20,761 nt of DNA from a virus, in IMG/VR virus record IMGVR_UViG_3300049793_000148, positions 1-20,761 of that record. One strand, 5' to 3'. The notes beneath the pieces are model-generated. The model was not told where the DNA came from. It made no database searches and saw only the letters and a program-made list of their open reading frames with translations. Positions 1,574 through 20,761 of this stretch are shown in pieces; position 1 is the first letter of the stretch, and every line of letters begins with the position of its first letter. The translations under genes were made by a program, and so were the position numbers.

Positions 1574-3787
1574 ATGGCCTATCCGCCCGTCCAGGAAGGC
1601 GTCATCCAGCGCGCCTTCGGCGCCGGCGAGCTGGCGCCGGTGCTCCACGCGCGGGCCGACAACGTCAAATACACGACCGGCCTGCGGACCTGCCGGAACT
1701 TCCTCGTGCTCCGGGGCGGCGGCGTCAGCAACCGCGCCGGCACCCGCTATATCGGCACCTGCAAGACGAACTCGCCGACCGTGCAACTCATCCCATATCT
1801 CTCGGAGCTGGCCGGCGAGTCGATGGTCATCGAGTGCGGCTCGGGCTATCTGCGCTTTTTCAAGAATGGGGCCGCCGTGAACGTCGCCGGCGTGCCGGCC
1901 TGGAACGGCGCGACGCCGTATGTGCCCGGGGATGTCGTGAGTAATGGCGGCGTGAATTACTGGGCGAAGCAAGGCTCCCTGAACCAGGCGCCGCCGAACG
2001 CCACGTATTGGGCGCCCCTCACCGGCACGCTGCTCGAGATTCCCACCGTCTTCGGGTCCACAGACCTGCCCTACTGGAGCCAGAGCGGCCGGACGATTAC
2101 GCTCACCCACGAGCTGCATCCGCCGCAGGAGTTGACCTATCAATCGGTGGCGCACTGGTCGCTGACGGCCGTCAATACGGCGCCCACCGGGGCCCCCCCG
2201 ACCGGGCTGGTGCTCACGCCCGGCGGCGCGGGCGCGCGGCGCTTTGCGTATGTGGTAACCGTGGCGCTGGCCTCGAGCTATGAAGAGTCAATCGCGAGCG
2301 GCGTCGTCGTGAACCTCGGCTGTGCCCAACCGACGGAGGCGGCGCCGAACGTGCTGACCTGGACGCCGGTCGTCGGCGCGGTGGAGTATTACGTCTATTG
2401 CGACCCCTACGGCAACGGGACCTTCGGCTTTCTCGGCACGGCCACCGGCGCGGCCAGCTTCAACGATGTCGGCTTCGTGCCGGACTTCACGATTACGCCG
2501 CCGCTGCCGCGCGTGCTCTTTGCGAGCGCGGGGAACTATCCGAAGGTCTCGACCACCTACAAGCAGCGGCGCTTCTTCGGTTACACCATCAATCACCCCG
2601 ACGGCATCGACGCCAGCCGGGTCGGCTTCCCGTCGAATTTCGCGATCAGCTCGCCGCTCCAGGATGACGACGCCCTGGCGTTTACGATCGCCGGCGGCCA
2701 GCACAATCCCGTGCGACATCTCGTCGGTCTCAAGCCGCTGATCGTCCTGACCGATGCCGGGGAGTGGAGCGTGGTGGGCGAAAATGGCGTGCTCGCCCCC
2801 AACACCATCATCGCGGACCAGCAGACCTTTGTCGGCTGCGCGCCCATCCGGCCGGTCGTGGTGGGCAATTCGATCATCTACGTGCAGGCCCGAGGCTCGA
2901 TTCTGCGGGATCTCCAGTTCGATATCGCCGTCGAAGGGCTCGCCGGCCGGGATCTCACCGTCTTCAGCTCGCACCTGGTCGATGGCCACACCATCCGCGC
3001 GCTGACCTTTGCTCAGGCGCCGCATTCCATCGTGTGGGCCGTGCGCGAGGATGGCGTGCTCCTCGGCCTGACGTATCTGCGCGAGCAGGAAGTCTGGGGC
3101 TGGCACCGGCACGATACGGACGGGTTTTTCTGGGACGCCTGCGCGGTGGCCGAAGCCACCGGCGACATGGTGTATTGCATCGTGCGCCGGACGATCAACG
3201 GCGCGACGGTGCGCTACCTCGAGAAACTCGAGAAGCGCGAGATCGGCGTCTTTGACGTCGATTGTTTTTTCGTCGATGCGGGCCTGAGCTATTCCGGTCC
3301 GCCGGTCGGCAACGTCGCCGGCCTCGACCATCTCGAGGCGAAACGCGTCGCCGTGGTGGGCGACGGCGCGGTGATCTCGGACGGGGTCACCGGCACGGCC
3401 TACGTGGTGACCGGCGGCACGCTCGTGCCCGCGCTGCCGGCCACCTATGCGAATATTCATGTCGGGCTGCCGATTTTGGTCGTGGAAATCGAAACCCTCG
3501 ATCTCGACGTGCAGGGGGCGAATGTGCGCGACAAACAGAAACGGCTCGGCGGGCTCGACGTGTTGATTGACCAGAGTTCCCGGAGTTTCAAGGCGGGGCC
3601 GGACGAAAACCATCTCATCCCCTACGCGCCGCCGCTCTATGAGCCGGCGTCGGATACCTTCACCGGCCAGGTCGAATTGAATCTGACCTCCGCGTTCAAT
3701 CGCTACGGCCGGGTCCTGATTCGGCAGACCGATCCCTTACCGCTGACGATTCTCGGCGTGATCCCCCACGTCGAGCTGGGAGGGTAA
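1574..3787 (+). CDS. Tail nozzle / tail tubular protein B (T7 gp12 / P22 gp10-like)
   Basis: Structural protein of the short tail that forms the nozzle below the adaptor. The N-terminus (residues 11-60, with AFGAGEL, LRTCRNF and GGGVSNRAGTRYI) is the classic nozzle signature of an R/G-rich strand set. Residues about 109-150 (WNGATPYVPGDVV...YWAK...YWAPL) look like a small CBM5/12-type carbohydrate-binding insert. Residues about 205-312 resemble an FN3-like module. The core has DDDALAFTIAGGQ (from 364), YVQARGS (from 436) and LTYLREQEVWGWHRHDTDG (499-518), all of which I recognise from phage nozzle proteins. The 737-aa length is within the usual range. The ATG lies 3 bases after the adaptor stop, with only a weak RBS (ggtaggcg), which suggests translational coupling. 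Family assignment is firm; the function of the insert is inferred. Confidence 0.88.
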   Translation: MAYPPVQEGVIQRAFGAGELAPVLHARADNVKYTTGLRTCRNFLVLRGGGVSNRAGTRYIGTCKTNSPTVQLIPYLSELAGESMVIECGSGYLRFFKNGAAVNVAGVPAWNGATPYVPGDVVSNGGVNYWAKQGSLNQAPPNATYWAPLTGTLLEIPTVFGSTDLPYWSQSGRTITLTHELHPPQELTYQSVAHWSLTAVNTAPTGAPPTGLVLTPGGAGARRFAYVVTVALASSYEESIASGVVVNLGCAQPTEAAPNVLTWTPVVGAVEYYVYCDPYGNGTFGFLGTATGAASFNDVGFVPDFTITPPLPRVLFASAGNYPKVSTTYKQRRFFGYTINHPDGIDASRVGFPSNFAISSPLQDDDALAFTIAGGQHNPVRHLVGLKPLIVLTDAGEWSVVGENGVLAPNTIIADQQTFVGCAPIRPVVVGNSIIYVQARGSILRDLQFDIAVEGLAGRDLTVFSSHLVDGHTIRALTFAQAPHSIVWAVREDGVLLGLTYLREQEVWGWHRHDTDGFFWDACAVAEATGDMVYCIVRRTINGATVRYLEKLEKREIGVFDVDCFFVDAGLSYSGPPVGNVAGLDHLEAKRVAVVGDGAVISDGVTGTAYVVTGGTLVPALPATYANIHVGLPILVVEIETLDLDVQGANVRDKQKRLGGLDVLIDQSSRSFKAGPDENHLIPYAPPLYEPASDTFTGQVELNLTSAFNRYGRVLIRQTDPLPLTILGVIPHVELGG
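3778..3784 (+). promoter_or_regulatory. Ribosome binding site for the gp14-like gene
   Basis: The sequence gggaggg ends 7 bases before the ATG at 3792 and lies in the last codons of the nozzle gene. It supports that start. Confidence 0.6.
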
Positions 3788-4400: not shown

Positions 4401-6275
4401 ATGCCGACTGTCCAAACCTACGGCCCGCGCAAAGTCGCCCTCGAGCCGCTGCCGGGCGTGCAAAAGACGGCCGCTGAGACGCCGCTCTCGCAAGGCGCGG
4501 GCATCGCGGAAGCGCAGGGGCAGAAGGCCGCCGTCATCGGGCAGACCGGCCAGCAGATCGAGCACGTCGGCGCGCAGTTCGCCCAGATCGCGCTCGAAGA
4601 AAAACAGAAGGCCGACAACACGGCGGCCACCGCGTTCGATAATAGTCTGGCGCGCTGGGAGAACGACCGGCTCTACGACCCTGAGAAAGGGGCGCTGCTC
4701 GTCAAGGGCCAGGACGCGATGCCGCTGCCGGAGTCGGTCGGCACGGAGTTCGAGAGTTACGCCAGCACGCTCATGGACGGGGCGAAGACCCCCGAACAGC
4801 GCGCGGCGTTCGAGAAGATCCGCGCCCAGCGCGGCACGGGCCTCGACCTCACCCTCCGCCGGCATGTCGCCACGGAGTTGCAGGCGGTGCATGCGAACGA
4901 GCTGAACGATTTCGTCAAAAACAACAGCCAGGAAGCCGTCGCCGCCGCGCTCGATCCCCAGACCGTCGGCCTCAAGTTGAACGCGGTGACCGATAAGCTG
5001 GCCGCCTCGGCGAAGATGATGGGCTGGGGGCCCGAGGAGCTGAAGCAAAACATCGCCGCCGCGACGACCTCCGTCCACGTCGGCGTCATTCATCGGCTGC
5101 TCGCCGCTGGCCAGGACGTGAAGGCTCAGGCGTATTTCGATCACACCAAAGACGCCATCACGACCGGCGACGCCCGCGCCTCGATCGAGCAGGCGCTCGA
5201 TGCCGGCACGACGCAGGGCGAGGGCCTGCGGACGTCGGAAACCCTCTGGTCGGCCCTCGGTCCGAAGGGCGACAACGATCCGATTAATCTCGACGCGATG
5301 GAAACGGCGGCGCGGACGAAGTTTGCGAACGACCCGAAGACGTTGGACGCGACGATTAAGTTTCTGCGCGAGCGCAAAGCCGGCGTCGATGCCAGTCGAC
5401 AGGACCGGAAAGAAGCGACCGCCGGCGCCGTCTGGACGGCCGCCAGCCAGGGCGCCACACTCGCGCAGATCAGCACGATGGCGGAGTTCACGAAATTGAC
5501 CGGCCAGGAGCAGGCCCGGATTGGTGATTACGTCGTCGCCAAAGTCGAGCACGAGGCGAACCGCGACATCGCAGCCACGAACCGCGCCTACACCGCTGAG
5601 CAGCGCGCCCAGCAGCTCAAGGAACGCCAGGGCTGGACGTCGTATTGGGACTTGTCGAATCCGGCCCGGCTCGACAGCACGAGCGAAGACGCCCTGCAGG
5701 CGATGCGCGGCAGCCTGGGGGATGAACTCGTCAACCGGCTGATGACGCAGAAGCGATCGCTGTCGAAATCGGAGGACACAGTGCGCGCCGCGACCATCGA
5801 CGATGATCTCTTCAAAGTCGTGGCGAAGAGCGCCGGGCTCGATCCCTACACGCCGAAGACCGACGCCCAGAAGTCTGATCTCGGGATGCTGAAAAACGAT
5901 GTCGAGAGCGCGATCGACATCGAGCAGCGCAAAGTCGGCAAGGAGCTGACCCGCGATCAGAAACAGAAAATCATGCACGACATCGTCGATCGGAAAGTGC
6001 TCCTGAATTACTGGGGCCCCGATCCGACCAAGATCGCGGCGATGGTCACCGACCCCGAGGATCGCAAGAAGGCATATGTCCCACTCGCCCAGGTCCCGGC
6101 CGCGGCCATCACCGCGGGCCTGAACTACGTGCGTGGCATCAGCCCGGCCACCGGCAAATTGACCGAGCCGCAACTCCGGGCGCTGGCGGCCCCCCGCATC
6201 CAGCGCGCCTACGCCCTCCGGTTGATGGGCGGCACCCAAGCCGAGATCGAGGCGGCCATGAAGGGCGAGGAATAG
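4401..6275 (+). CDS. Internal virion core protein, T7 gp15-like
   Basis: Probable second ejection protein, which in T7 forms a ring in the periplasm around the DNA conduit with gp16. The 624 residues are almost entirely helical and charged, with no signal peptide and no clear membrane segment. Recognisable is the block at residues 79-106 (FDNSLARWENDRLYDPEKG and KGQDAM), which is recurrent in podoviral core proteins. The middle (about 230-400) looks like short helical repeats, for example AYFDHTKDAITTGDARASIEQ and KTLDATIKFLRERKAG. The C-terminus (from about 560, VPLAQVPAAAITAGLNYVRG then GKLTEPQLRALA) resembles the end domain of the same family. No lytic transglycosylase or peptidase motif is seen. 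T7 gp15 is about 747 aa, so this is slightly shorter. The RBS is weak (gggtagcccacg), 6 bases after the previous stop, so coupling is likely. The call rests mainly on context. Confidence 0.7.
   Translation: MPTVQTYGPRKVALEPLPGVQKTAAETPLSQGAGIAEAQGQKAAVIGQTGQQIEHVGAQFAQIALEEKQKADNTAATAFDNSLARWENDRLYDPEKGALLVKGQDAMPLPESVGTEFESYASTLMDGAKTPEQRAAFEKIRAQRGTGLDLTLRRHVATELQAVHANELNDFVKNNSQEAVAAALDPQTVGLKLNAVTDKLAASAKMMGWGPEELKQNIAAATTSVHVGVIHRLLAAGQDVKAQAYFDHTKDAITTGDARASIEQALDAGTTQGEGLRTSETLWSALGPKGDNDPINLDAMETAARTKFANDPKTLDATIKFLRERKAGVDASRQDRKEATAGAVWTAASQGATLAQISTMAEFTKLTGQEQARIGDYVVAKVEHEANRDIAATNRAYTAEQRAQQLKERQGWTSYWDLSNPARLDSTSEDALQAMRGSLGDELVNRLMTQKRSLSKSEDTVRAATIDDDLFKVVAKSAGLDPYTPKTDAQKSDLGMLKNDVESAIDIEQRKVGKELTRDQKQKIMHDIVDRKVLLNYWGPDPTKIAAMVTDPEDRKKAYVPLAQVPAAAITAGLNYVRGISPATGKLTEPQLRALAAPRIQRAYALRLMGGTQAEIEAAMKGEE
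6267..6272 (+). promoter_or_regulatory. Ribosome binding site for the GTG-started giant gene
   Basis: The sequence gaggaa sits 4 bases before the GTG at 6277, inside the end of the gp15-like gene. It favours this GTG start, 1 base after the upstream stop, over any later ATG. Confidence 0.5.
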
Positions 6276-6276
6276 C

Positions 6277-9200
6277 GTGGGCGATCTCTCGCTCTTTCCC
6301 GAGACCGCGCCACCGGCGACGAGTGAAGTCACCAAACTCGCCCCGGCCCAGGAAGCGCAATTTCAAAGCTGGGTGCAGACCAACGGCATCACGGACGTCG
6401 ATCACCCTGACAGTCACTACGACTATCGGGGGTTCTGGCAGGCGTCGGGCGGCGCCCCGCATCCTACCGGCACCCACTACCCCGACACCTTCAAACAGCA
6501 CGGGCATCCGACGTTCTCGGTCGAATCGCAGTATTCGACCGGGCCGGACGATGGCGGGCGCTGGAACGGCGACACGTTCCAGCCCTCCGGTGGCGGGATC
6601 TCGCTCTTTCCGACCGATACGCAGGACCCGCTCAATCAGGCGGTCGCCCGCGCGCCGGGCACACCGGCCGATACCGCCGCGCGCATCTTCAAACTGCGGC
6701 TGCAGACCGGGCTGCCGACCGAGCTGATCAGCCGCAATCTCGAGGAGGTCGAGAAGCAGGCCGCCACGACCGGCTTCAACGCGGCGCAGTTCCGCCAGCA
6801 AACGCCCGCGCTCGCGCAGTGGCTCGGGGCCGATCCCCTCCACGCCGCCGTCAGCCAGGACGATCTGGCGAACATGGGTGCGCTCGAATGGCTCGTGAAG
6901 ATGCCGGCGCACGCGATTGCCCAGGCGATGAACGAACAAGCGTATGGCGTGTTGCGCTCGAAGGAAGTGCTCTTCGGCGGACTCAGCCCCCAGGAACACG
7001 ACCAGCTCGAAAGTTATAAATTCCAGGTCGCGCACGACGCCGATCTCGGGGCCGGCGAGGGCTGGTTTGCCGGTGCGCTCACCAAAGGCATGAAGCTAGT
7101 GACCGCGCTGACGCTGCCACAGGCTCGCCAGACGGCGATCGGCGCGGTCGTAGGTGGGACCCTCGGCGGCGCGGCTGGGGCCCTGGCGGGACCGGAGGCC
7201 ATCCCGGCGGGCATTGTGCAAGGCGCCCGGTTCGGCGCCAAAGCCGGCTATACCGTGGGTCTGGCGCAGAACACGTTTCTGGCGACCGTCGGCCCCTCCT
7301 ACGACAAATTCCTCGCGCTCCCCGATGAGTTTGGGCACCCCCTGGACCCCGCCGTAGCCAAAGGCGCCGCGGTGCTCGAGGCGACGATCAACAGCGGGCT
7401 GATGGTGGGCGCCGGTGAAGTCGCCCTGCACGCGATCCCGGGGTGGGAAAAGTTGACCGGCTCGTTCGCGCGCTCCGCCATCGAGACCGCGCTGCAGCAG
7501 CCGACCGTCCGCCAGAAGCTCGCCCAGGCCGTGCTCGCCAGTGGCAAGACGTTGACGGCCGGGGCCGCGCTCTCGCTCGCCCAGGAAGGGCTGAGCATTA
7601 TGACCGAGTCGCTGGCGAAGACGGCCAGCGGGCAACCCTTCGCGCCGCTCAGCACCGAGGAGGTCAAGCAGCGGATGGGGCACGCGTTCGCCGAAGGCAT
7701 CCAGAGTTTCGCGCTCCTGGCGGCCGGCGGGCCCGCGCTGGCGCTCCCGGCCGAGCTGCGACGGGCCCAGGCGGGCGCGGCCAATCAGGCGGTATTTACC
7801 GCGCTGGCTGAAGGCGCCAGCCAATCGAAGACGCTGGCGCGCTCCCCGGATGCCGTCCAGGCGTTTCTCGCCCACGCCACCAAGGACGGCCCAGTGCAGG
7901 ACGTCTATGCCCCGGTCGCCGACTGGACGACGTATTGGCAGAGCAAAGGGATTGACCCGGCGCAAATGGCCGAGAAGGTCGGCAGCTCGCGCGAGGCGTA
8001 TCAGCAGGCGGTGGACGCGGGGCACGACCTGATGATTCCGACCGCGGGTTACGCGGCGACCCTGGCCGCCACCGAACACGCGCCCCACTTTGCCGAGCAG
8101 CTCAAGCTGCATCCCGACGAAATGAACGGGGCGGAAGCGAAGGCGTATCTCGAGGCGCAGGCCCAGGCCGCGACGGTGCCACCGGTGTCCGCCGAAGCGC
8201 CGCCGTCGGGGGCGACGACGCAGATGCACGCCGACCTCGTCAATCAGCTTCAGGCGACCGGGATGACTGCGACCGACGCGAACACGAACGCGGCCGTCGT
8301 GTCGCAGTTCCTGGATAAATTCATCGAAGGCCGCGCGGGGTTGCCGGCCGGCCCGCTCTTTGAGGCCCGCTTCGGCGGAGTCGAGCGGACGCCCAGCCCG
8401 GAGACGATCGGGCTAGGACAGCCCCCCGTCGGGCCGCTCTCGGAAGCGGAGATTACGCAGCTCCTGGCCACGCCGGAAACCGTGCATGCGCTCGATCGTC
8501 GGACGTCCGAGGCGCTGAGTCTGCCCCCGGGCGGGGTCGAGCGCCGTCAGCCCCGATCGGCGGATGAGATTCTCGCGGCCAACCGCGCGGCGTCCGATGA
8601 GCCCATCAATGCAATGGCGGACGTGGCCGCCGCCGCTCGGCGGATGCTGGCCGAAGACCCGAACATCCGACAGCGCGCCCAGGATCTGGCCGCCCGCGAT
8701 CGCGCCGTTCGGTCCGGGGTCGTGCCGCCCGACGCGCCCTATAGCGGCACGCCGACGTTCTGGGGCTATGAGCCCGGGCCCGATGGCCAGCCACTCGCGA
8801 AATTCACCGTGCAAACCGAGACCGGGCCGACGCAGCGCTCGAAGGCCGATCTCGAGGCGCTCGGCATGACGGTGCCCGACCCCCCGCCCCCGCCAGTGAA
8901 ACAACTCAGCGGCGACGAGCTGCGGCGTCTGGCCCTGGCGGCCCGTGCGACCGGCACGCTGTATCAAACCGTGCCGCCGGATAACCAGGAGCCGGCGCCG
9001 ACGTTTTTCTCGCGCATCGTGCGGGCGGTGGAAACGAGCAGCCTCGCCAAAGCGAGCGGCAGCCAGTGGGTCGCGACGATCAAGAACGCGAAGGCTGGCA
9101 TCAACGCCGAGGAGTTTGCGGCGCTCAATGTCGCCGGCCTGGCGCCGCCCGTGAAAGACGTCGGGCAGCTCGGGCTCTTCAGTGGCCAGACGCAGCTTGC

Positions 9201-12200
9201 CGGCGAGAAGGTCTATACGAAGCAGGAGGTCCTCGACTACCTGGCCGAGAACACGCTCAAAGTCGAGCCGGTGATCCTGGGCGGGGCGACCGTGACGGAC
9301 GATCAATTTTCTGATGAAGTCGATCGTTTAGTCGATGAGGCGGTGGAATCTGAAGCGGACAGGCTCCGAGAAAATTACGACGATTCCGATCAAATCGATC
9401 GGTTAGATGAACAATTCGATTATCCGCGGTCGGCGGTGACCTACAACGAAGACGATCAACTCTTCCATGTCACCGTCGGGGGCGAGGAAATCGACACCGG
9501 ACCCTTCGACACCAAGACCCAAGCCGAGGACGGCCTTCAGGAACACCTCGACGTGCTCCGCAACGAGTTCATCGACGAGAACTACGAAAAACCCGACTTC
9601 GAGGAGATGGCGCGGCGGAATATCGACCGCGATGATTTCGAGGAAGTGGCGCGGGAAAACCTCGGCGGCACGGGCGAGGGCGCGACACACTACGGCACCT
9701 ACTCCGTCAAGGGTCCACGCGAGGAATATCAGGAAGTATTTCTCACGGTGCCGAATGCGCCCGCGCCAGGCGCTTCGGCGGCCGGCGAGACCGGCCCCAC
9801 GATACGCGTCGCCGAGCGCACGATCCCGGAGCAAGGGCGCTTCACAAACGCCGGCCCAGGCGCCGGCAACGTGCCAGGCGGACGCATTCCTTACGACCCC
9901 AACGCGGAGATCACCGTGCGTCCGGCGGGCGGCAACGAACAGACCGGCGCCGGGTTCGCGATCTTCATCGACGGCCAGAAGTGGCTCGATGCCGATGGCG
10001 AAATCGTGCGACCTGGAGGACAGAACGCCGAGGAGGCACTCCAGGAGGCCCATGCTCTTTATCGAGAGGCCGGGCTGCCGGCGATCCGGCCCACTGGCGA
10101 GCCCGCGCCGACGGCCGGCTGGGAAGACGGGCACGGCGATTACAAAGACATCGAGAATCCCTGGGTGCGGCTCCGCGTGGATACACGCTACTCGACCGGC
10201 GGCGAAGGCGCGGCGCTGAAGGTGCTCTTCATCAACGAGGCCCAACCGCCCCAGAAAGACCAGCAGGAGAAGATCCCGGTCATCCTCAAAGGCGCGGGCG
10301 GCAAGATGCCCTATCAGGCCGCGCTGAAGTGGGCGCTCCTGCACGCGGTGGCCACCGAACACGACGCGATTGCGTGGGCGACTGGCAAACAGTCCGCTGA
10401 TTTTTATTCCCTCGAGCGCCAAATCGCCCGCATCGCCTGGGGTCCCGCCGATCCAAATTCCCCCGGGCGCCGCGCCGAGGGCGGCGTGAAGTGGATCACG
10501 TTTGAACCGAAGGATGGTGGCACGATTCGCATCACCGTCGACGCCGAGAACCGCATCACCGACAGCTCGCACGAACGGCTGCGGAATGAAGCCCTCGCGA
10601 GTGTCGTCGAACAGGAATACGTCGACCAAATTGCCGCCACCCCAGCGGGCGATCTGACCGGCCCGAAACTGGTCTATGGCGGCGCTGGCCTGAAGCGGCT
10701 CTACGACAAAGACCTCGTGAACATCGCGAACAGCCTGGCGCCGATGAAGGCGGCGAAGGCGCGCGTCGGCGCGGTCTCGATTGACGCACGAGACCCCAGC
10801 TATCGCTCGACGCCGCAGGGTGAGAACCCCGTCACGGGCATCATCCCCGACGACAACGGGGGCCTCACGCTCCAGCTCGCCGATGGCACCACCTGGGGGC
10901 ATTACGAGATGACCGCAGGGGCCGAATCGGCACGCGATCGGTGGAATGCCGACATCGAGGCTCGCGGCTCTCAGACATCCGCCCAGCCGGGCATTGTCCT
11001 TACGCCCGAGCTGAAGGCAGCGCTCAGGGGCGGCGTGCCGATGTTTCAAAGCGCGTCAGGCGAACCGCAGCGCCGCGCCGGCATCACCTTCGATCCCACG
11101 ACTGGTCGCGCCCTAATTTCACTCTTTGCGAAGGCGGACCGGACCAGCTTCCTGCACGAGTTCGCCCACCTCGGGCTCGAGCTGACGGGGGATGTCGTCG
11201 ATGAGCTGACGAAACTCGCGCCCGGCGATCGCAGCCCTTCGCAGCAGCGCGTGCTGGATGACTTTGAAAAGATTCTGCTGCCCTGGCTGGGCGTGAAAAC
11301 CCGCGCCGACATTGGTCCCGCCCAGCACGAGCAATTCGCCGAGGCGTGGGAAGACTACCTGATGGCCGGCAAGGCCCCGAGCGCCGAGCTGCGGCCCATC
11401 TTCGCGCGCCTTAAAGCCTGGATGATTGGGGTCTACAAGAACGTCCAGCGCACGGTCACGCTCACCCCGGACGTGCGTGGGTTCATGGACCGGCTGCTCG
11501 CCAGCGACGAGGAGATTGCGGCCCAGGAGGCCCAGGCGCGCTTCACCCCGATTTTCACCGATGCGAAAGCCGCCGGCATGACGCCGGAAACCTTCGAGCT
11601 GTATCGCAAGACCGTCGAGGCTGCCAGCACGCAGGCGCGCGAGCAGCTCGACCGCCAGGCTGTCACCGACTATCGACGCGAGCAATCGAAAACTTACGCC
11701 GACCAGCGCGCCGGCGTCGAGGCCGCGGTCACCGCCGAGCTGCATCAGCAGCCGGTCTACCAGGCGCTGGCGGCGATTCGGTATGGGACCGAGCCCAACG
11801 GCGATCCGATCGAACCAGCCACCGCCGACACCCCGCCGGTGCCGATGAAGCTCGATCGGGCCGAGGTCGTCAAGATTCTCGGGGAAGCGAAAACAAAAAC
11901 GCTGCCGCGGCCGTATGTCTACACGCGCGAGGGTGGCATGGACCCGCGCGTGGTCGCCGATGCGTTCGGGTTCTCGAGCGCGCACGAGCTGCTCACCGCC
12001 ATCGCGGACGCGCCAGCCCTCGAGGATGCCATCCGTCAGACCACCCAGGAGCGGATGCTGGCGGAGCACGGCGGGCTCTTCCTCGACGGGACCCTCCCGG
12101 AGCAGGCCCAGCTCGCCCTGGCGAACGATGCCCGCGATCGCCTCATCCGCGTCGAGCTGCGGGCGCTGGGGAAACTCAAGCGCACCGTCGCGCCGTTCGT

Positions 12201-14997
12201 CCGGGCGGCCGAAGCCGGCAAGCAAACTCAAATCAACGCCCTGGCCGACCAGGCCACCGCGCAGGCTCGCGCGACCCGGCGAGGGCCCGCCACGATTGCC
12301 GCCGGGGTGCCGCCGCAAGCGGTGATTGAACAGGCGGCCCAGGCGCGTATCGCGCAGACCAAACTCCAGGACCTGCGCCCCGAGGTCTTCTGGTCGGCCG
12401 CCAGGGAGGCCAATCAGCGGGCGATCGCCGCTGCCGCCCGGCAGGACTTCCAGGGCGCCATCACCGCGCAAACCCAGCATCTGCAAAACCTCGCCTTCTA
12501 CCGCGAAGCCAGGAAAGCGCTGTCTGATACCGAGACCCGCGTCCTGACGGCTCGCGCGCTCGACTCGGTCGCCTCCCGCAAACGCCTCGGCCGCGCGGGG
12601 CTGGGGATTCAAGCACAGATCGATGGCATCCTCGATCGCTACGACTTCGCGACGATCACGGGCCCCGCACTCACGCGCCGGCTCTCGATGCGCGACTGGG
12701 TCGCCAATCTCGAAGGGCAGGGGCTGCCGGTCGATCTCCCCGACGCGGTGCTCGATGATGCGCGCCGGGTGAATTACAAAGAGCTGACGCATGCCGAACT
12801 GGTGGACGTGAGCGACGGGCTGCAGCAGCTCGTGCATCTCGCGCAGATGTCCAACCGGCTCTTCAAGAGCAAACAGGCGGCGACCCTCTCTGAGCTGGCG
12901 ACGACCTTGTCCGGGTCGATTCGAGAGTCCTTCACCGGGACGCCGCCGACGATTGCCCGAGACCGAAGCACCGGCGAGAGCGGCCGGCTCTGGAGCAACT
13001 TCGGACTGTCGCATGTCCGCCTGGCCGATTTCATGCGCCAGCTCGACGGCGGCGAAGACGGCGGCCCGATGTCCACCGCCTTCAGCCTGCCGCTCAACGA
13101 AGCCGGCGCGCGGGAAGCGGACCTGAATGCCGAGGCCACCCGCCGGCTGGGCGACACGGTCGAAACCGCGTATCCGCGCTCGGAGAAGGCCCGGCTCTAC
13201 GAGAAGCAGGCCATCCCCGCGCTGGGCGCCGGCGTCAGTCTTTCGCGCATGGAACGGCTGATGATTGCGCTGAATTGGGGGAATGAGGGCAGCCGCGACC
13301 GCCAGCGCGCGTATGAAGGCTGGAGCGATCAGCAAGTGCAGGCCATCCTCGATACCCTCGACGCGCGCGATCTGAAATTCGTCCAGGGCGTGCTCGACCA
13401 AATCAACAGCTACAAGGGCGAGATCGTCGCCAAGCAAACGCGCGTTTACGGGGTCGCGCCGACGATGATCGACCCGGCGCCCATCACCGCGAAGGCCGGC
13501 ACGATTCCCGGCGGCTACTTTCCGCTGAAGTATGACGACCGGCTCTCGGCGACCGCCGCGCGCAACCTCGATCTGGAGGCCGGGAACCTCGCGAAGCTGG
13601 CCGCCTACACCACCGCGACGACCGCGCGCGGCTTCACCAAAGAGCGGTTGTCATATGTGAAGCTGCCCATCCGCCGAGACTTCGGGCCGATCTACGAGCA
13701 TCTCGGGCAGGTGATTCACGACCTCACCCATCACGAGGTCCTCATCGATCTCGGGCGCGTGCTGAACCGCCCCGAGGTCCAGGGCGCCATCTACGGGACC
13801 TACGGCGACCAGACCTACAAGGAAATCAAGAGCGCGATCCGCGATGTCGCCTACGGCACGGCCGGCCCGCAAAACGGGTTCGAGCGCGCGATGGGGTCGT
13901 TCCGATCGGGGTCGGCCATCTCGGCCCTCGGCTGGAGCCTTACGGTCCCGCTCCTGCATCTCTCCGGGGCGCTGCCCAAAGGCATCAACCGGGTCGGCGC
14001 CGGCTGGTTCGTGCAGGGCCTGGGGCGCTGGGTCCGTGGGCCGGAGTCCATGCAAGGGACGACCGAATGGATCTACGCGAACAATCGCGGTATGGCCAAT
14101 CGGGGCCGCACGCAGCAGCGCGAGATCAATGAAATCCGCAACAGCGTCGGCGTCCACACGGGGCGCTTCTCTGGCTGGGTCGCGGAGGCGATCGACAAGG
14201 CCAGCTTCGGCCTGGCCGACAAGCAGAAAATCGTCGACAGCTATTTCTACCTGGTCGCGAAAAGCCAGCAGGTCGCCGACATCAGCGTGTATCTCGGGCA
14301 GTTCGAGAAGAGCCGGGCCGCCGGCGAGCCCGAGCCCCGCGCGCATGCGATCGCGGAGCAGGCGGTGCTCGATGCTTTCGGTGGGGGGCAGATGAAAGAC
14401 CTGCCGGCGGTGATGCGCGGCGGCGCGCTCCTGAAGGTCTGGACCACGTTTTACGGGCCGTTCAATTCGACGTTCAACCTCATGCGGGCGGCGACCAAAG
14501 GCACGACCTTCAGCGATCCGGTGTCGGTCGGCCGGCTGGCGGTCGACTATCTGATGATCTGGAGCGCGCCGGCGATCCTCGGGCTGGGCGTCCGCTACGC
14601 GCTCAATCCGAACGCGACGCCGGATGATTGGGACCTCGCGAGCGAATTTGCGAAGGCGCATCTCTCGTATCTCGCCGACATGATGCTCGGGACGCGCGAG
14701 CTGGCCGGCGTGATTCACGGGTATCACGGCTACGAAGGGCCGGCCGGGGCGAGTCTCTTTGCGAAACTCACGAAAGCCTATGAACAGGGCGCGACCGCGG
14801 TCGGCCATCTGCGCGAAGGCGCCCCGGCGAGTGAAGCGCTGCCGCCGCTCTTCTGGGCCGCGGTCGATGCCGGCGGCGTGCTGTTTCACTACCCAGCGGC
14901 CCAGCTCCAGCGCACCGCGGGCGGTCTGGCGGCGCTCCTCGAGGGTCAGACCATGAACCCGGCCGTGCTCGTCACGGGCGCCCCGAAGGCTCCCTAA
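6277..14997 (+). CDS. Giant gp16-like ejection protein with polyvalent region and HExxH metallopeptidase-like motif
   Basis: Probable largest core/ejection protein (2906 aa; T7 gp16 is about 1318). Residues about 37-93 ([23 protein letters not shown]) form an N-terminal domain I know from phage virion proteins. Residues about 287-313 are a Gly/Ala-rich apolar stretch, and the region to about 700 is helical. A polyvalent-protein region runs from about 880 to 1500: THYGTYSV (1137-1144), [13 protein letters not shown] (about 1365-1377) and [11 protein letters not shown] (1468-1478). After LTPELKAAL and GVPMFQ comes [12 protein letters not shown] with H1627, E1628 and H1631, and a downstream [10 protein letters not shown] (E1689) that could give the third zinc ligand. 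The rest is helical, with GYFPLKYD and apolar stretches near 2549 and 2754 that could be membrane-active. No lytic transglycosylase motif was found. Start is GTG. Domain calls come from recognition of motifs; roles are inferred. Confidence 0.8.
9685..10710 (+). other. Polyvalent-protein domain region inside the giant protein
   Basis: Encodes residues 1137-1478, between THYGTYSV and [12 protein letters not shown] recognise these landmarks, plus the [11 protein letters not shown] strand-helix, from the large polyvalent proteins of phages and conjugative elements. Their biochemical activity is not established to my knowledge. An extra beta-beta-alpha segment (about 1209-1264) sits between the THYG motif and the [10 protein letters not shown] strand. 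It resembles another such unit at about 1051-1092. Confidence 0.55.
11155..11169 (+). other. HExxH zinc-metallopeptidase-like motif
   Basis: Encodes H1627-E-F-A-H1631 within [12 protein letters not shown]. HExxH with flanking apolar residues is the zincin signature, and a Glu (E1689, in FAEAWEDYL) lies 58 residues after the last His as a candidate third ligand. Similar AD.(S/T)(S/T)FLHE(F/S).H segments recur in large phage virion proteins. Activity is inferred. Confidence 0.6.
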
Positions 14998-17312
14998 TGC
15001 CGCGCGACAAAGCCAGCAAAGCGCGCTCGACCGTCATGCCGGTGCGGCAGCAAGACGGCACCCCCGTCGAGGATCTCTTTGGCACCGCCCCCGGCTCTGG
15101 GCTCCTCCCGCAAGGGCCGCCAGGTCTCGAAGGCATCGAGGGCGAACCTGGCGATCCGGGACCCCCAGGGCCGTCTGGTCCGGCCGGTCCTGCGGGCGCA
15201 CCAGGCGCACCAGGCGCACCAGGCGCTCCCGGTGGGCCGAGCGGGCCAGCAGGTGGGCCTGGTCCCGATGGCGAGATGGGGTCCGATGGTGAGATGGGGC
15301 CGCCGGGGCAAACCGGCCCGACCGGTGCGAGCGGCGCAAAGCTCCTCCTCTATGAGGCCACAGGGACCAGCACGAGCGCGGTGCCGGTCACGCTCGATAG
15401 TTACAACTTCGCGGCGGGCGATCTCACGGACGCTGACACGATTGAACTCGTCATCGAGGTTGAAGCGGTCGCGCAGAACGTGCCCAAAATCGACGTCGAG
15501 CAAATCACCGATGCGGTGTCCCTTACGCAACGGTTGCACGGGCTCGGCGGCGGGCTCGGCATCCCCGCCGGACAGGCCGCCTACACGTCGATGCTCGTGA
15601 GTCGCGCGCCGTCATCAGCCCTAGTGATCGGCGCGATCGGCGTAGGGAGTTTTCCCGGGGCGTTTGCCGCTCCCAATCTCGCCGTCCTCGAAGCCTGGAC
15701 GGCGGCCTGGGCGATCGGGCTGACGACGACCGGGATCCCTGCCGGCGGCACGATCCTCTGGCACTGGAAGCTCTACAAGGTGCGGGGTCACGGGATTAGC
15801 TTCGCCGGGGTGCCAGGGCCGACCGGGCTCGTCGGGCCAATGGGTCCGTCCGGGGCGCCCGGGGTGATCGGCGATGAAGGCCCCGAAGGCCCACCAGGGC
15901 CGCCGGGGCCACAAGGCCCCATCGGTCCCGCGTCGTGCGGCATCGGCGAGGGCCGAGAAACGGCCATCGAAACCGGCGTGCTCGATGGCCTCATCGACAA
16001 TCTCGGACAACCGCCCTGGGCTGACACCGTGCCGGATCTCTCAGGCACGCAGTCGAACGTCAAATGCTTCGCGTCGCTCGGGAACGGCATCGTGCTCGCC
16101 GGCACCGGGAACGGCGGGCATCTCTGGCGCTCGACGAACTACGGTCGGAGCTGGACCGATCTCGGCTCGCAGTTCGGCGCCGATCTCGTGATCTGCCTGA
16201 TGCATCTGGGCAATGGGATCGTGATTGCCGGCACCGGCTCCGTGCAAGGGCATCTCTTGCGCTCGACCGATTACGGGCAAACCTGGGCCGACCTGGGCCA
16301 GCAATTCGGCCAAAGCAACATCACCTGTCTTGCCTACTGCGGGAACGGCATCGTGCTCGCCGGCACGCAGATCAACGGGAAGACGCTGCGCTCGACCGAC
16401 TACGGGGCGACCTGGACGGACCTGGGCGACGTCACCGGCGCCGGGCAGCAAATCATCACGGCGCTGGTGTATCTCGGGAACGGCATCGTGCTCTCGGGCA
16501 CCTACAATGCCGCGCATATCTATCGCTCGACCGACTACGGGGCGACCTGGACGGACCTGGGCGCCATGTTCGGCCAGGAGCAAATCCAGACGCTCTGCCG
16601 CGTGGGATCGTGCGGTGTCGTCGTGGCGGGCACGCACGGGGTCGCGGGCGGCACGCGGTTACGATCGACCGACTTCGGGCTCTCCTGGGTGAATCAAGGC
16701 GTCTTCGGCGCCGAGACCTTCATCTACGCGTCCGCCTATCTCGGGGCGGGCGTCGTGCTCCTGGGCACGCGCCCGACCGGGCTGATTATGCGATCGCGTG
16801 ACGCCGGCGTGACCTGGGTCACAACCGGACCTTTCGGCAATTCTGGGGTGATTTACTCGCTCGCCTATCTCGGGGAAGGCATCGCGCTGGCTGGGTCGGA
16901 CGACAACATCACCTTCGGCGCCCGGCTCTGGCGCTCGGTCGGGTGGCGTGAGGGTCGCGTCATCCCGACGGCGCTCCAAGGCCCGCCAGGACCGCCCGGG
17001 GATGATGGGCTCGACGGTGACATGGGGCCCCCAGGACCGCCAGGTTGGCCTGGGCCGGCCGGTCTCCCTGGGATCATGGGTCCGCCAAGCCCGGACGGGG
17101 ATGAAGGCCCAGAAGGGGCGCCAGGCCCCCCGGGACCACAAGGGGCGATCGGTCTGACCGGCGTCGGCCTCGACGGGGCCCAGCCAGACGACCTCCTGGC
17201 GCTCCTCCGCTATGCCTTCGAGCGGATCAACTTTTTGGAGGCGGCCCTGAAGGTGAGTTATAAATCGCACGATATTCTCGTGCCGGAGCAAATCCGTTTC
17301 CTGGAAAGGTAG
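14997..17312 (+). CDS. Collagen-like tail fibre with Asp-box (BNR) beta-propeller
   Basis: Likely trimeric fibre or receptor-binding protein. Architecture of the 771 residues: short leader (1-39); collagen-like Gly-X-Y segment 1 (about 40-115); beta-rich domain (about 116-266); Gly-X-Y segment 2 (271-312); propeller (about 351-656); Gly-X-Y segment 3 (662-724); helical C-terminus (about 730-771). The propeller has six Asp boxes of the form RST(D/N)(Y/F)GxxW (W386, W430, W473, W518, W564 and W607, the last as RSRDAGVTW). A degenerate seventh is [11 protein letters not shown] (about 643-653). Spacing is 43-46 residues and each blade contains [10 protein letters not shown]-like strands, so seven blades are implied. 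Asp-box folds include sialidases, but I see no sialidase catalytic set, so binding is as likely as catalysis. There is no typical T7 gp17 N-terminal attachment domain. The ATG overlaps the giant's stop by one base (taatg), implying translational coupling. Confidence 0.8.
15114..15341 (+). repeat. Collagen-like Gly-X-Y segment 1
   Basis: Encodes about 25 Gly-X-Y triplets at residues 40-115 (such as [16 protein letters not shown]). The phase slips by one residue at Gly79-Gly80. The DNA contains three exact copies of the 9-mer gcgcaccag (15196-15222), which suggests growth by slippage or unequal exchange. Confidence 0.85.
15807..15932 (+). repeat. Collagen-like Gly-X-Y segment 2
   Basis: Encodes 14 uninterrupted Gly-X-Y triplets (residues 271-312), including [17 protein letters not shown]. 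It links the beta-rich domain to the propeller. Confidence 0.85.
16080..16563 (+). repeat. Near-identical propeller blade repeats
   Basis: A 40-base perfect direct repeat lies at 16389-16428 and 16524-16563, exactly 135 bases (45 codons) apart. A 26-base perfect repeat lies at 16080-16105 and 16341-16366. They encode Asp-box and strand segments of successive blades. Confidence 0.85.
16980..17168 (+). repeat. Collagen-like Gly-X-Y segment 3
   Basis: Encodes 21 triplets (residues 662-724), with one Gly replaced by Ser at residue 698 (codon agc at 17088-17090). It joins the propeller to the helical C-terminus. Confidence 0.85.
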
Positions 17313-17319
17313 ATCGATC

Positions 17320-18003
17320 ATGGACGTGTTACTGCAAGCGCGTATTCGCAAAATCCTCGAAGCGGTCGACGCGGAAGCCGTCGGCACCGACGAACAAGAA
17401 CTCGTGCTGTCGTCGCAGCTCGAGCTGCTGATTGCCTTGGGGGCGACCGGCATGCAGGAAATCGTCCGCGTCGGTCGGGCCTTTCATACCGGCACCACGG
17501 TGGCGCTGGCGGCAGTCGTCGCCATCCCCACCACTGGCGTCATGCTCGCCCTGTGGAATAGCGCGGAAGATGGCGGTCGGTCGCTGGTCATCGACTGGGT
17601 CGCGGCGAGCGGCGTCGCGAAGACGGCGGCGGCGGGGCAGCAACAGCTCCTCGGGCTCATCGGGCAAGTGCGCGAAGCGGCGCCAACCGATGCCGCGCTC
17701 ACGATCAAGAAACGCAACGGCTTGGGGTCGCCAGGAAGCGCGCGGCCGGACACGAAAGCGATCACGAGCATAACAGCCCTTCCGGCCACAACCGGCCTCG
17801 CAGCGAACTGGTGCCCGATCGGGCCGGCCTTTGGATCGCCAGGCGCCGGTGCGACGCCTGGACATGGCGCGTTCCAGAAAGTCGACGGCGACTTCATCGT
17901 CCCGCCCGGCCGGTTTTTCGCGATGCACGTCCTTGCCGATGTTGTCGGATCGACCTATCTCGGATTCATCGGCTATCACGAAAAACAGCTCGCGCTTGGT
18001 TAG
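17320..18003 (+). CDS. Putative virion-associated protein, unknown function
   Basis: A 227-residue protein. The N-terminus (residues 1-45) is helical and acidic. The rest is beta-rich with a two-part pattern: FHTGTTVALAAVVAIPTTGV (about 51-70), then LVIDWVAASG, LLGLIGQ, ANWCPIGPAFG, DGDFIVPPGRFFAMHVLAD and GFIGYHEKQLALG at the end. This resembles phage virion proteins of unknown role that sit next to fibre genes in environmental phage genomes; that is recall, without a search. No signal peptide or membrane segment is seen. The RBS ggaaagg (17303-17309) ends 10 bases before the ATG and overlaps the fibre stop. It could be a fibre-associated or capsid decoration protein. Confidence 0.55.
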   Translation: MDVLLQARIRKILEAVDAEAVGTDEQELVLSSQLELLIALGATGMQEIVRVGRAFHTGTTVALAAVVAIPTTGVMLALWNSAEDGGRSLVIDWVAASGVAKTAAAGQQQLLGLIGQVREAAPTDAALTIKKRNGLGSPGSARPDTKAITSITALPATTGLAANWCPIGPAFGSPGAGATPGHGAFQKVDGDFIVPPGRFFAMHVLADVVGSTYLGFIGYHEKQLALG

Positions 18004-19624: not shown

Positions 19625-20761
19625 ATGAGTCAACTCCAGGTCCGTGACGAGGCCGGGCAGCCGCTCGCCCGCATCAACATCCGCATCGCCCCAGGCATTG
19701 CGCCCAGCGATGCGGCGATTTACGACGTCACGACCGACCCGAGCGGCAATACGGGCTGGCCGATTCCGTTCTGGCCGGTGCGCCGCTATACGCTCTACGT
19801 GAACGTCGATCCCCTCTGGGCCGACACGCGCTACGGCACCGCGGCGGTGCTGGTCGACCATGATCGGGACGTGCTGATTACGCTCAGCCGCCTGAGCCGG
19901 CGCCCGGCCGCCAAGCGGCAACTCCCGCTGCCGCCGTTCGATCGCAACGATGGCGGCGGCGACGTGGCCATCGTGCTCCCGCCCGAGCAGCAGCTCCCGA
20001 CGGCATCTACTCGGGAGTTCTGGATCGGGGATGCCTGGGGCGTGACCCTCGACGAGACCCCGCCGTTCGTCGAGGGGGCCAACACGACCCCGCGCGAGAT
20101 GGTAATGAGCTATCTCCTCCCGCTCTACGATCGCGTGTGGCAGGACAAAATCCTCACCGGGCACGCCGAGCGCGGGCTCTCGCATTTTCACCTCGATCAA
20201 CCCACCTGGGAGAAAGCCGGCAAGAGCGTTGCGGAGATGGTCGACCTGTTCAAATACATCCAGTCCTGGGGATTCTTTACAAGCTGGTGGGCGACCGGCT
20301 CGAAGAGTCCGCGTAATCAGAATTGGCAGGGCCTGCGCGGGATCATCGAACCGTTCCTGCGCGCCCTCATTGCGGCCGGAGAGTCTGAGAAATCGATCTG
20401 TCTGGTCGGCGAGGAATTAAATAGCTGGAACCGGCCCGGCCCGGACGGCCTCGATGACATCATCGCGAACGTCTGCGCGATCTGTAATCCGGTCGACTTG
20501 CCGGTCTGGTTGCACTTCACGTCCAACATCCCGAGCTGGCAACCGGACGGGATGACGCCGGAAGCCTGGTGGCGGTCCTGGGCGGGACGCGTCAAAGGCT
20601 GTTGCTGGCAGTCCACGCCGAGCGAGCCGGCCGGGACGATGGCCGCCCGCATGTGGGACACGCGCAAATACCTCGGCGCCGCCGATTCGAGCCTGCTCGT
20701 GTCGGCCTGGGAGCTGCGCGGCGAAGAGCAGCTCTATGGCCGCTGCACCGAAGCGCAAGGC
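19625..20761 (+). CDS. Ig/CnaB-like plus putative TIM-barrel hydrolase-like protein, 3' end outside the window
   Basis: The frame stays open from the ATG at 19625 to the window edge (379 codons seen). Residues 1-93 look like an Ig- or CnaB-type beta-sandwich (LQVRDEAGQPLARINIRIAP, DPSGNTGWPIPFWPVRRYTL). A basic, Pro-rich linker follows (about 94-128). The rest is Trp-rich and resembles glycoside-hydrolase-like (beta/alpha)8 segments: SHFHLDQPTW, WGFFTSWW, CLVGEELNSWN (E263 and E264, candidate acidic residues after a beta strand), PVWLHFTSNIPSWQPDG and WAGRVKGCCWQS. I recall similar sequences in environmental phage proteins near fibre genes. The function is unproven; a surface-glycan hydrolase or a tail-associated binding protein is possible. 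RBS gtgaggt (19612-19618) ends 6 bases before the ATG. It follows the lysis cassette. Confidence 0.6.
   Translation, partial: MSQLQVRDEAGQPLARINIRIAPGIAPSDAAIYDVTTDPSGNTGWPIPFWPVRRYTLYVNVDPLWADTRYGTAAVLVDHDRDVLITLSRLSRRPAAKRQLPLPPFDRNDGGGDVAIVLPPEQQLPTASTREFWIGDAWGVTLDETPPFVEGANTTPREMVMSYLLPLYDRVWQDKILTGHAERGLSHFHLDQPTWEKAGKSVAEMVDLFKYIQSWGFFTSWWATGSKSPRNQNWQGLRGIIEPFLRALIAAGESEKSICLVGEELNSWNRPGPDGLDDIIANVCAICNPVDLPVWLHFTSNIPSWQPDGMTPEAWWRSWAGRVKGCCWQSTPSEPAGTMAARMWDTRKYLGAADSSLLVSAWELRGEEQLYGRCTEAQG

Follow-up and report, generated by a model that had tools for sequence, protein, structure and literature searches.

The window, which is the whole stretch of DNA analysed here, is a 20.8-kb IMG/VR fragment of 20,761 nucleotides. 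Its features are listed in Table 1. The upstream genes encode homologues of tail proteins (phrog_394 and phrog_376), a gp14-like protein, a lysis-like protein, and a giant protein of 2906 aa, which belongs to phrog_9880 and also carries LPD22. Behind the giant gene lies a frame of 771 aa, which begins with an ATG, is open throughout, and overlaps with its start the stop of the giant gene in a TAATG. A 227-aa protein, two small proteins, and a GH108 endolysin are encoded downstream. At the end of the window, a large open frame (19625-20761) had no match in Pfam, NCBIfam, or the named phages, and, judged by eye, its product seems to have a small Ig-like domain ahead of one that resembles glycoside hydrolases.

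The phrog_376 and phrog_9880 proteins matched Bbp13 and Bbp10 of Bordetella phage BPP-1, and also proteins of Caulobacter phages. In BPP-1, bbp10 is followed by bbp9, which we take to be the tail-fibre gene, and then by mtd, whose product Mtd is the attachment protein of this phage. The 771-aa frame holds the bbp9 position, directly behind the Bbp10-like giant gene. Thus, the chain occupies a fibre locus of a tailed phage and, as described below, contains Gly-X-Y runs well above chance, two of the features that mark a collagen-like phage fibre. No close relative of the whole chain was found in IMG/VR or among the named phages.

Table 1. Features of the fibre locus in the window (residues refer to the 771-aa chain)
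Feature	Position	Strand	Basis
Giant virion-type protein, 2906 aa, Bbp10-like	6277..14997	+	phrog_9880; stop overlaps the fibre start
Collagen/propeller tail-fibre gene, 771 aa	14997..17312	+	Open frame; Pfam Collagen and BNR_6/BNR/Sortilin-Vps10; PHROG tail fibre families
N-terminal peptide M[AP]RDK...R.QD, residues 1-39, probable virion anchor	14997..15113	+	Recurs in the gene at this place in sister contigs G012 and G013/G014, whose distal parts differ
Collagen segment 1, residues 40-115 (76 residues), 26 triplets with one slip, about 22 nm if triple helical	15114..15341	+	Gly-X-Y runs; Pfam
Beta-rich domain without known relative, residues 116-270	15342..15806	+	Low-confidence beta-rich model
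Collagen segment 2, residues 271-312 (42 residues), 14 triplets, about 12 nm if triple helical	15807..15932	+	Gly-X-Y runs; Pfam
Seven-bladed Asp-box propeller, residues 341-647	16017..16937	+	Alignment; AlphaFold2 model; fold matches
Collagen segment 3, residues 662-724 (63 residues), 21 triplets with one Gly-to-Ser break, about 18 nm if triple helical	16980..17168	+	Gly-X-Y runs; Pfam
C-terminal coil/cap ending ...VPEQ, residues 725-771, and stop	17169..17312	+	Match to the C-terminus of the L086 collagen protein
227-aa protein, candidate fibre partner or tip	17320..18003	+	Position; weak resemblance to the same-place gene in sister contig G012

Modular architecture of the 771-aa chain

The Pfam search of the chain returned Collagen in four stretches (E=8e-22), BNR_6 (E=7e-12), Sortilin-Vps10 (E=2e-9), and BNR. 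Gly-X-Y runs were located at residues 40-81 (14 triplets), 80-115 (12), 271-312 (14), 662-697 (12), and 701-724 (8). The reading slips by one residue near 80 in the first segment, and a Gly is replaced by Ser at 698 in the third. Shuffling the sequence 2000 times at constant composition gave a longest run of 3.7 triplets on average and of 8 at most, compared with the 12-14 triplets observed in the fibre. The three collagen segments of the original prediction are therefore borne out by runs beyond all of the shuffles and by the Pfam match.

The original prediction also placed a beta-rich domain between the first two collagen segments, and such a domain is present. It had no match in Pfam, NCBIfam, the named phages, or any fetched locus, its PHROG scores were weak only, and it had no similarity to the C-terminus of the SR18 fibre. 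The single-sequence model of this domain was beta-rich but unreliable (pLDDT 51), and too poor for a fold search.

In the propeller, six canonical Asp boxes were recognised at residues 379, 423, 466, 511, 557, and 600, with a blade period of 43-45 aa. A seventh unit keeps the blade sequence and has lost its Asp box. Ahead of the first unit lies a strand similar to WTDLGQQ, the outer strand of the other blades, and residues 341-343 of this N-terminal closing strand supply the outer strand of blade 7. The same layout was seen when the propeller was aligned with 16 relatives (n=17, some rows partial): wherever the rows extend over the parts concerned, an N-terminal closing strand precedes seven units, of which the final one lacks the Asp box. 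With this alignment, AlphaFold2 returned a closed ring of an N-terminal strand and seven blades (pLDDT 88.3, pTM 0.89), in agreement with an Asp-box propeller, whose seven blades are four-stranded. Ring closure had been set beforehand as a point on which the prediction could fail. In the model, the ring closes and the seven blades stand, and the count of Asp boxes is corrected to six.

The PDB fold matches of the propeller model were Ycf48, GH74 propellers, and sortilin, in agreement with the profile search, and structural realignment to other propellers gave Z values up to 32.8. Among viral structure models, 218 matched at E<=0.001, and the second-best BFVD match was the protein of Vibrio phage VP2. 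PhiKZ gp131C, also a seven-blade propeller (PMC4901313), was not among the fold matches listed, which excludes nothing. VPS10/sortilin proteins have ten blades followed by a 10CC module, and the window chain, with seven blades followed by collagen, was not assigned to them. The conserved positions of the propeller (RS.D.G..W) are structural, so they mark no ligand site.

The blades are approximately 50% alike within the window propeller, hardly above the 48% to those of other phages; a recent blade duplication was therefore rejected, and the window blades are, judged by this divergence, old. A recent foreign origin of the propeller was also rejected, since its GC3 of 0.846 falls within the 0.83-0.86 of the backbone genes. 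Elsewhere, blades were 95% identical within one protein of L026 (2947-3882, 129-nt period) and 74% identical within one protein of L024 (1923-2897), and L015 likewise had near-identical blades, which suggests that blades were recently duplicated, or homogenised by gene conversion, in these sequences.

Exchangeable fibre ends and spread of the propeller

A scan for close relatives of the last 265 aa of the giant protein gave none, and relatives were found later through the tail protein. In these sister contigs, the giant protein is 48-53% identical to that of the window. In G012 and G013/G014, the gene after the giant gene begins with the same M[AP]RDK...R.QD peptide and then continues into quite different proteins; the peptides share nine invariant columns, a count from three short sequences only. 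In G015, G016, and G020, no gene with such a peptide lies directly after the giant gene. Since a peptide that stays constant at a locus while the distal parts change is the usual pattern of an anchor, residues 1-39 are probably a virion anchor whose distal parts have been exchanged.

At the other end of the chain, the C-terminal cap has a counterpart in contig L086, where a 122-aa collagen protein ends in a stretch of 59% identity (54 aa aligned). This contig yielded no homologue of the tail protein of the window and was counted as an unrelated phage. There (4794-5815), the collagen stub with the same cap is directly followed by a 222-aa protein, and the two may be a connector and tip pair. 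Global alignment of the 222-227 aa proteins downstream of the fibre or cap in the window, G012, and L086 gave z values of 1.4 to 3.8. This signal is weak, and a common origin was not adopted. By sequence, the two termini of the chain thus resemble authentic ends of a fibre, and an assembly chimera is less likely for this reason. Because the N-terminal peptide and the C-terminal cap each recur in other phages, the 771-aa frame is a real, complete, modular tail fibre.

The spread of the propeller was followed with DNA patterns for the blade type, run on IMG/VR and microbial contigs, and approximately 40 IMG/VR contigs and six microbial contigs were obtained. The carriers, whose types were assigned by eye, included baseplate-like and tail-tip proteins, fibres, and T4-like proteins. 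An Asp-box module with the motif WTDLGQQ was seen in L004-L028, L036-L044, and L079-L085, which are very different phage tail proteins. Moreover, phrog_8700, annotated as 'unknown function', matches the Asp-box module. An unannotated propeller module of this kind would thus be widespread in environmental phage tail proteins.

The original prediction had proposed an architecture search, and this search recovered collagen with the same propeller type, in one chain or locus, in three other IMG/VR phage lineages, all uncultured. The chain of L011/L019/L047 consists of an anchor, the propeller, long collagen, and a beta-helix-like end. In L038, the propeller is followed by >400 residues of interrupted collagen. 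L041/L048 has a small domain, collagen, and then propeller blades with an interrupted frame, the order nearest to that of the window fibre; in L048 (G005:C1:9500-15000, 2391-3744, minus strand), this interruption is a broken gene or a sequencing error. In L047 (161-4839; contig G003), a neighbouring fibre gene carries a very similar N-terminal module and long collagen without a propeller, suggesting that the propeller was inserted between the N-terminal module and the collagen.

Among 50,697 named phage records, propeller homology was confined to Vibrio phages, and collagen was absent from the reading frames checked in these. A full-text literature search, outside which most subscription journals lie, returned no description of the propeller-collagen combination in phages. 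The separate parts are known, as had been stated at the outset, with collagen-domain-collagen in EPclB (PMC3368898) and Asp-box proteins in Vibrio phages. The order of these parts in one protein had been called unusual, and the absence of the combination from the named records by propeller homology agrees with this; nevertheless, the combination is rare and not unique, since it recurs in the three IMG/VR lineages and is reported for the fibres of extracellular contractile injection systems (eCIS). The window fibre is therefore a variant of known fibre kinds, new, and rare but recurrent.

Proposed function and alternative readings

We consider it reasonably likely that the virus is a BPP-1-like podovirus with a homotrimeric fibre, anchored by its N-terminal 39 residues and assembled through its three collagen triple helices and its C-terminal coil. 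Since a collagen triple helix requires three chains, each fibre would carry three propellers. Since blade 7 takes its closing strand from the N-terminus of the propeller and its other strands from the C-terminus, the chain would enter and exit at one blade, and each propeller could hang sideways from the rod while the rod stays unbroken. The propellers, perhaps together with the beta domain, may bind a surface glycan or another host feature weakly but multivalently, and flexible collagen joints would let the three heads swing to meet their target. The best reading of the locus, which we hold to be fairly probable, is thus that a trimeric fibre serves adhesion through three pendant propellers, which probably bind glycans and lack catalysis. 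Being small and expressible, such a fibre would allow the contribution of flexible multivalent lectins to adsorption to be tested.

We favour binding over cleavage since the chain carries no catalytic signature of sialidases or GH74. That the propeller is an enzyme trimming capsule or another polysaccharide, like endosialidase spikes or GH74 xyloglucanases, is suggested by the presence of GH74 and sialidases among its fold and sequence relatives and by a weak NCBIfam match to the F510_1955 glycosylhydrolase. However, this match scored 53.7 bits, far under the family cut-off of 175. A GH33 sialidase was rejected because the chain lacks the [FY]RIP motif and has seven blades instead of six. In a GH74 xyloglucanase, the catalytic cleft lies between two tandem seven-blade propellers, whereas the window chain has one. 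We therefore regard an enzyme as quite improbable. A serious alternative, though an unlikely one, is that the collagen/propeller chain serves as stalk and spacer, and that the receptor is bound by the 227-aa protein encoded next, which would dock on the C-terminal coil and act in attachment as Mtd does in BPP-1. The order of a fibre followed by a small protein is shared by the window, G012, and L086, the last with the same cap, and mtd comes after bbp9 in BPP-1. However, the three downstream proteins lack clear homology to each other, and this reading leaves the propellers unexplained.

The fibre could also be mounted in reverse, or on the head instead of the tail, given that the C-terminal cap is kept between phages as well and that head-protein annotations exist for some collagen virion proteins (phrog_38766). 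It is the N-terminal peptide and not the cap, however, that stays constant at the locus in the sister phages, and the gene lies directly behind tail and internal-protein genes, which makes such a mounting highly improbable. An assembly chimera formed through the low-complexity collagen repeats might be feared, because the source is a metagenome assembly fragment and such repeats can collapse. Against this, the frame is open across its full length, each end is independently related to sequences in fibre contexts, and the GC3 of the propeller matches that of the backbone genes; a chimera is extremely improbable.

Beyond the window, the adhesion reading would extend to the module itself. We tentatively propose that the Asp-box propeller roams among tailed phages as an adhesion module, a self-closing domain that would fit into fibres, baseplate proteins, and tail tips alike since its ends meet at one blade. 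Mounted on collagen shafts, it would form trimeric lectins that swing freely, an arrangement that the eCIS fibres would have in common with it and that is undescribed for phages. The spread of the module could otherwise be explained if the propeller were a structural spacer or a protein-protein docking domain.

Comparison with known systems

In gene position, the window fibre corresponds to BPP-1 Bbp9, directly behind the Bbp10 giant gene. However, Bbp9 has another N-terminal domain, and its sequence contains neither collagen nor an Asp box. Ycf48/Hcf136, GH74, and sortilin share the fold and the Asp boxes but are cellular proteins with other blade numbers or functions. Closer to phages, the 'outer capsid protein' of Vibrio phages phiVC8/OVC8/VP2 and the protein of vB_VmeM-32 belong to the same propeller superfamily (30-33% identity). 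These differ from the window fibre in that no collagen was found, in their annotation as capsid protein, and in the two Asp-box sets of vB_VmeM-32. The latter protein (L045:5104-7188) is 694 aa long, and its twelve Asp boxes, arranged six and six, suggest that it contains two such propellers.

The receptor-binding protein (RBP) of Staphylococcus phage phi11 is a homotrimer with three propellers at a triple-helical stem (PMC4901313), and in 80alpha collagen (FibU) and propeller (RBP) are on separate proteins (PMC7048315). The display of three propellers around a stem, as in these RBPs, is proposed for the window fibre as well. However, the RBPs are five-bladed, have a coiled-coil stem and tower domains, and sit on a Gram-positive baseplate, and the window fibre, with seven blades and a collagen stem, is not of the phi11 type.

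Phage-borne collagen fibres are represented by two E. coli O157 prophage proteins, EPclA, a proven collagen trimer with trimerising domains, and EPclB, in which Col-domain-Col units form beads on a string (PMC3368898), as in the window fibre. They carry PfN/PCoil/Pf2/PfC domains, and no propeller is mentioned for them (PMC3368898). In a search of Pfam profiles, the terminal pieces of the window fibre had no match, and no PfN or PfC was seen.

A close counterpart is the eBAP3 fibre of eCIS, in which beta-propeller lectins and collagen-like triple-helix shafts are reported to occur in one fibre, a combination that the authors call undescribed in phages (PMC12923769, 2026). Aromatoleum buckelii is among the sources of such fibres named there. 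Compared by description only, the window fibre shares the propeller and collagen in one chain. eBAP3 differs in belonging to contractile injection systems and in having a TNFR-like C-terminal domain. A shoulder-like attachment domain also marks eBAP3 fibres, and the window chain has only its 39-aa N-terminal peptide. If the proposed reading is true, this propeller-on-collagen design, reported in 2026 for contractile injection systems, is employed by phages as well.
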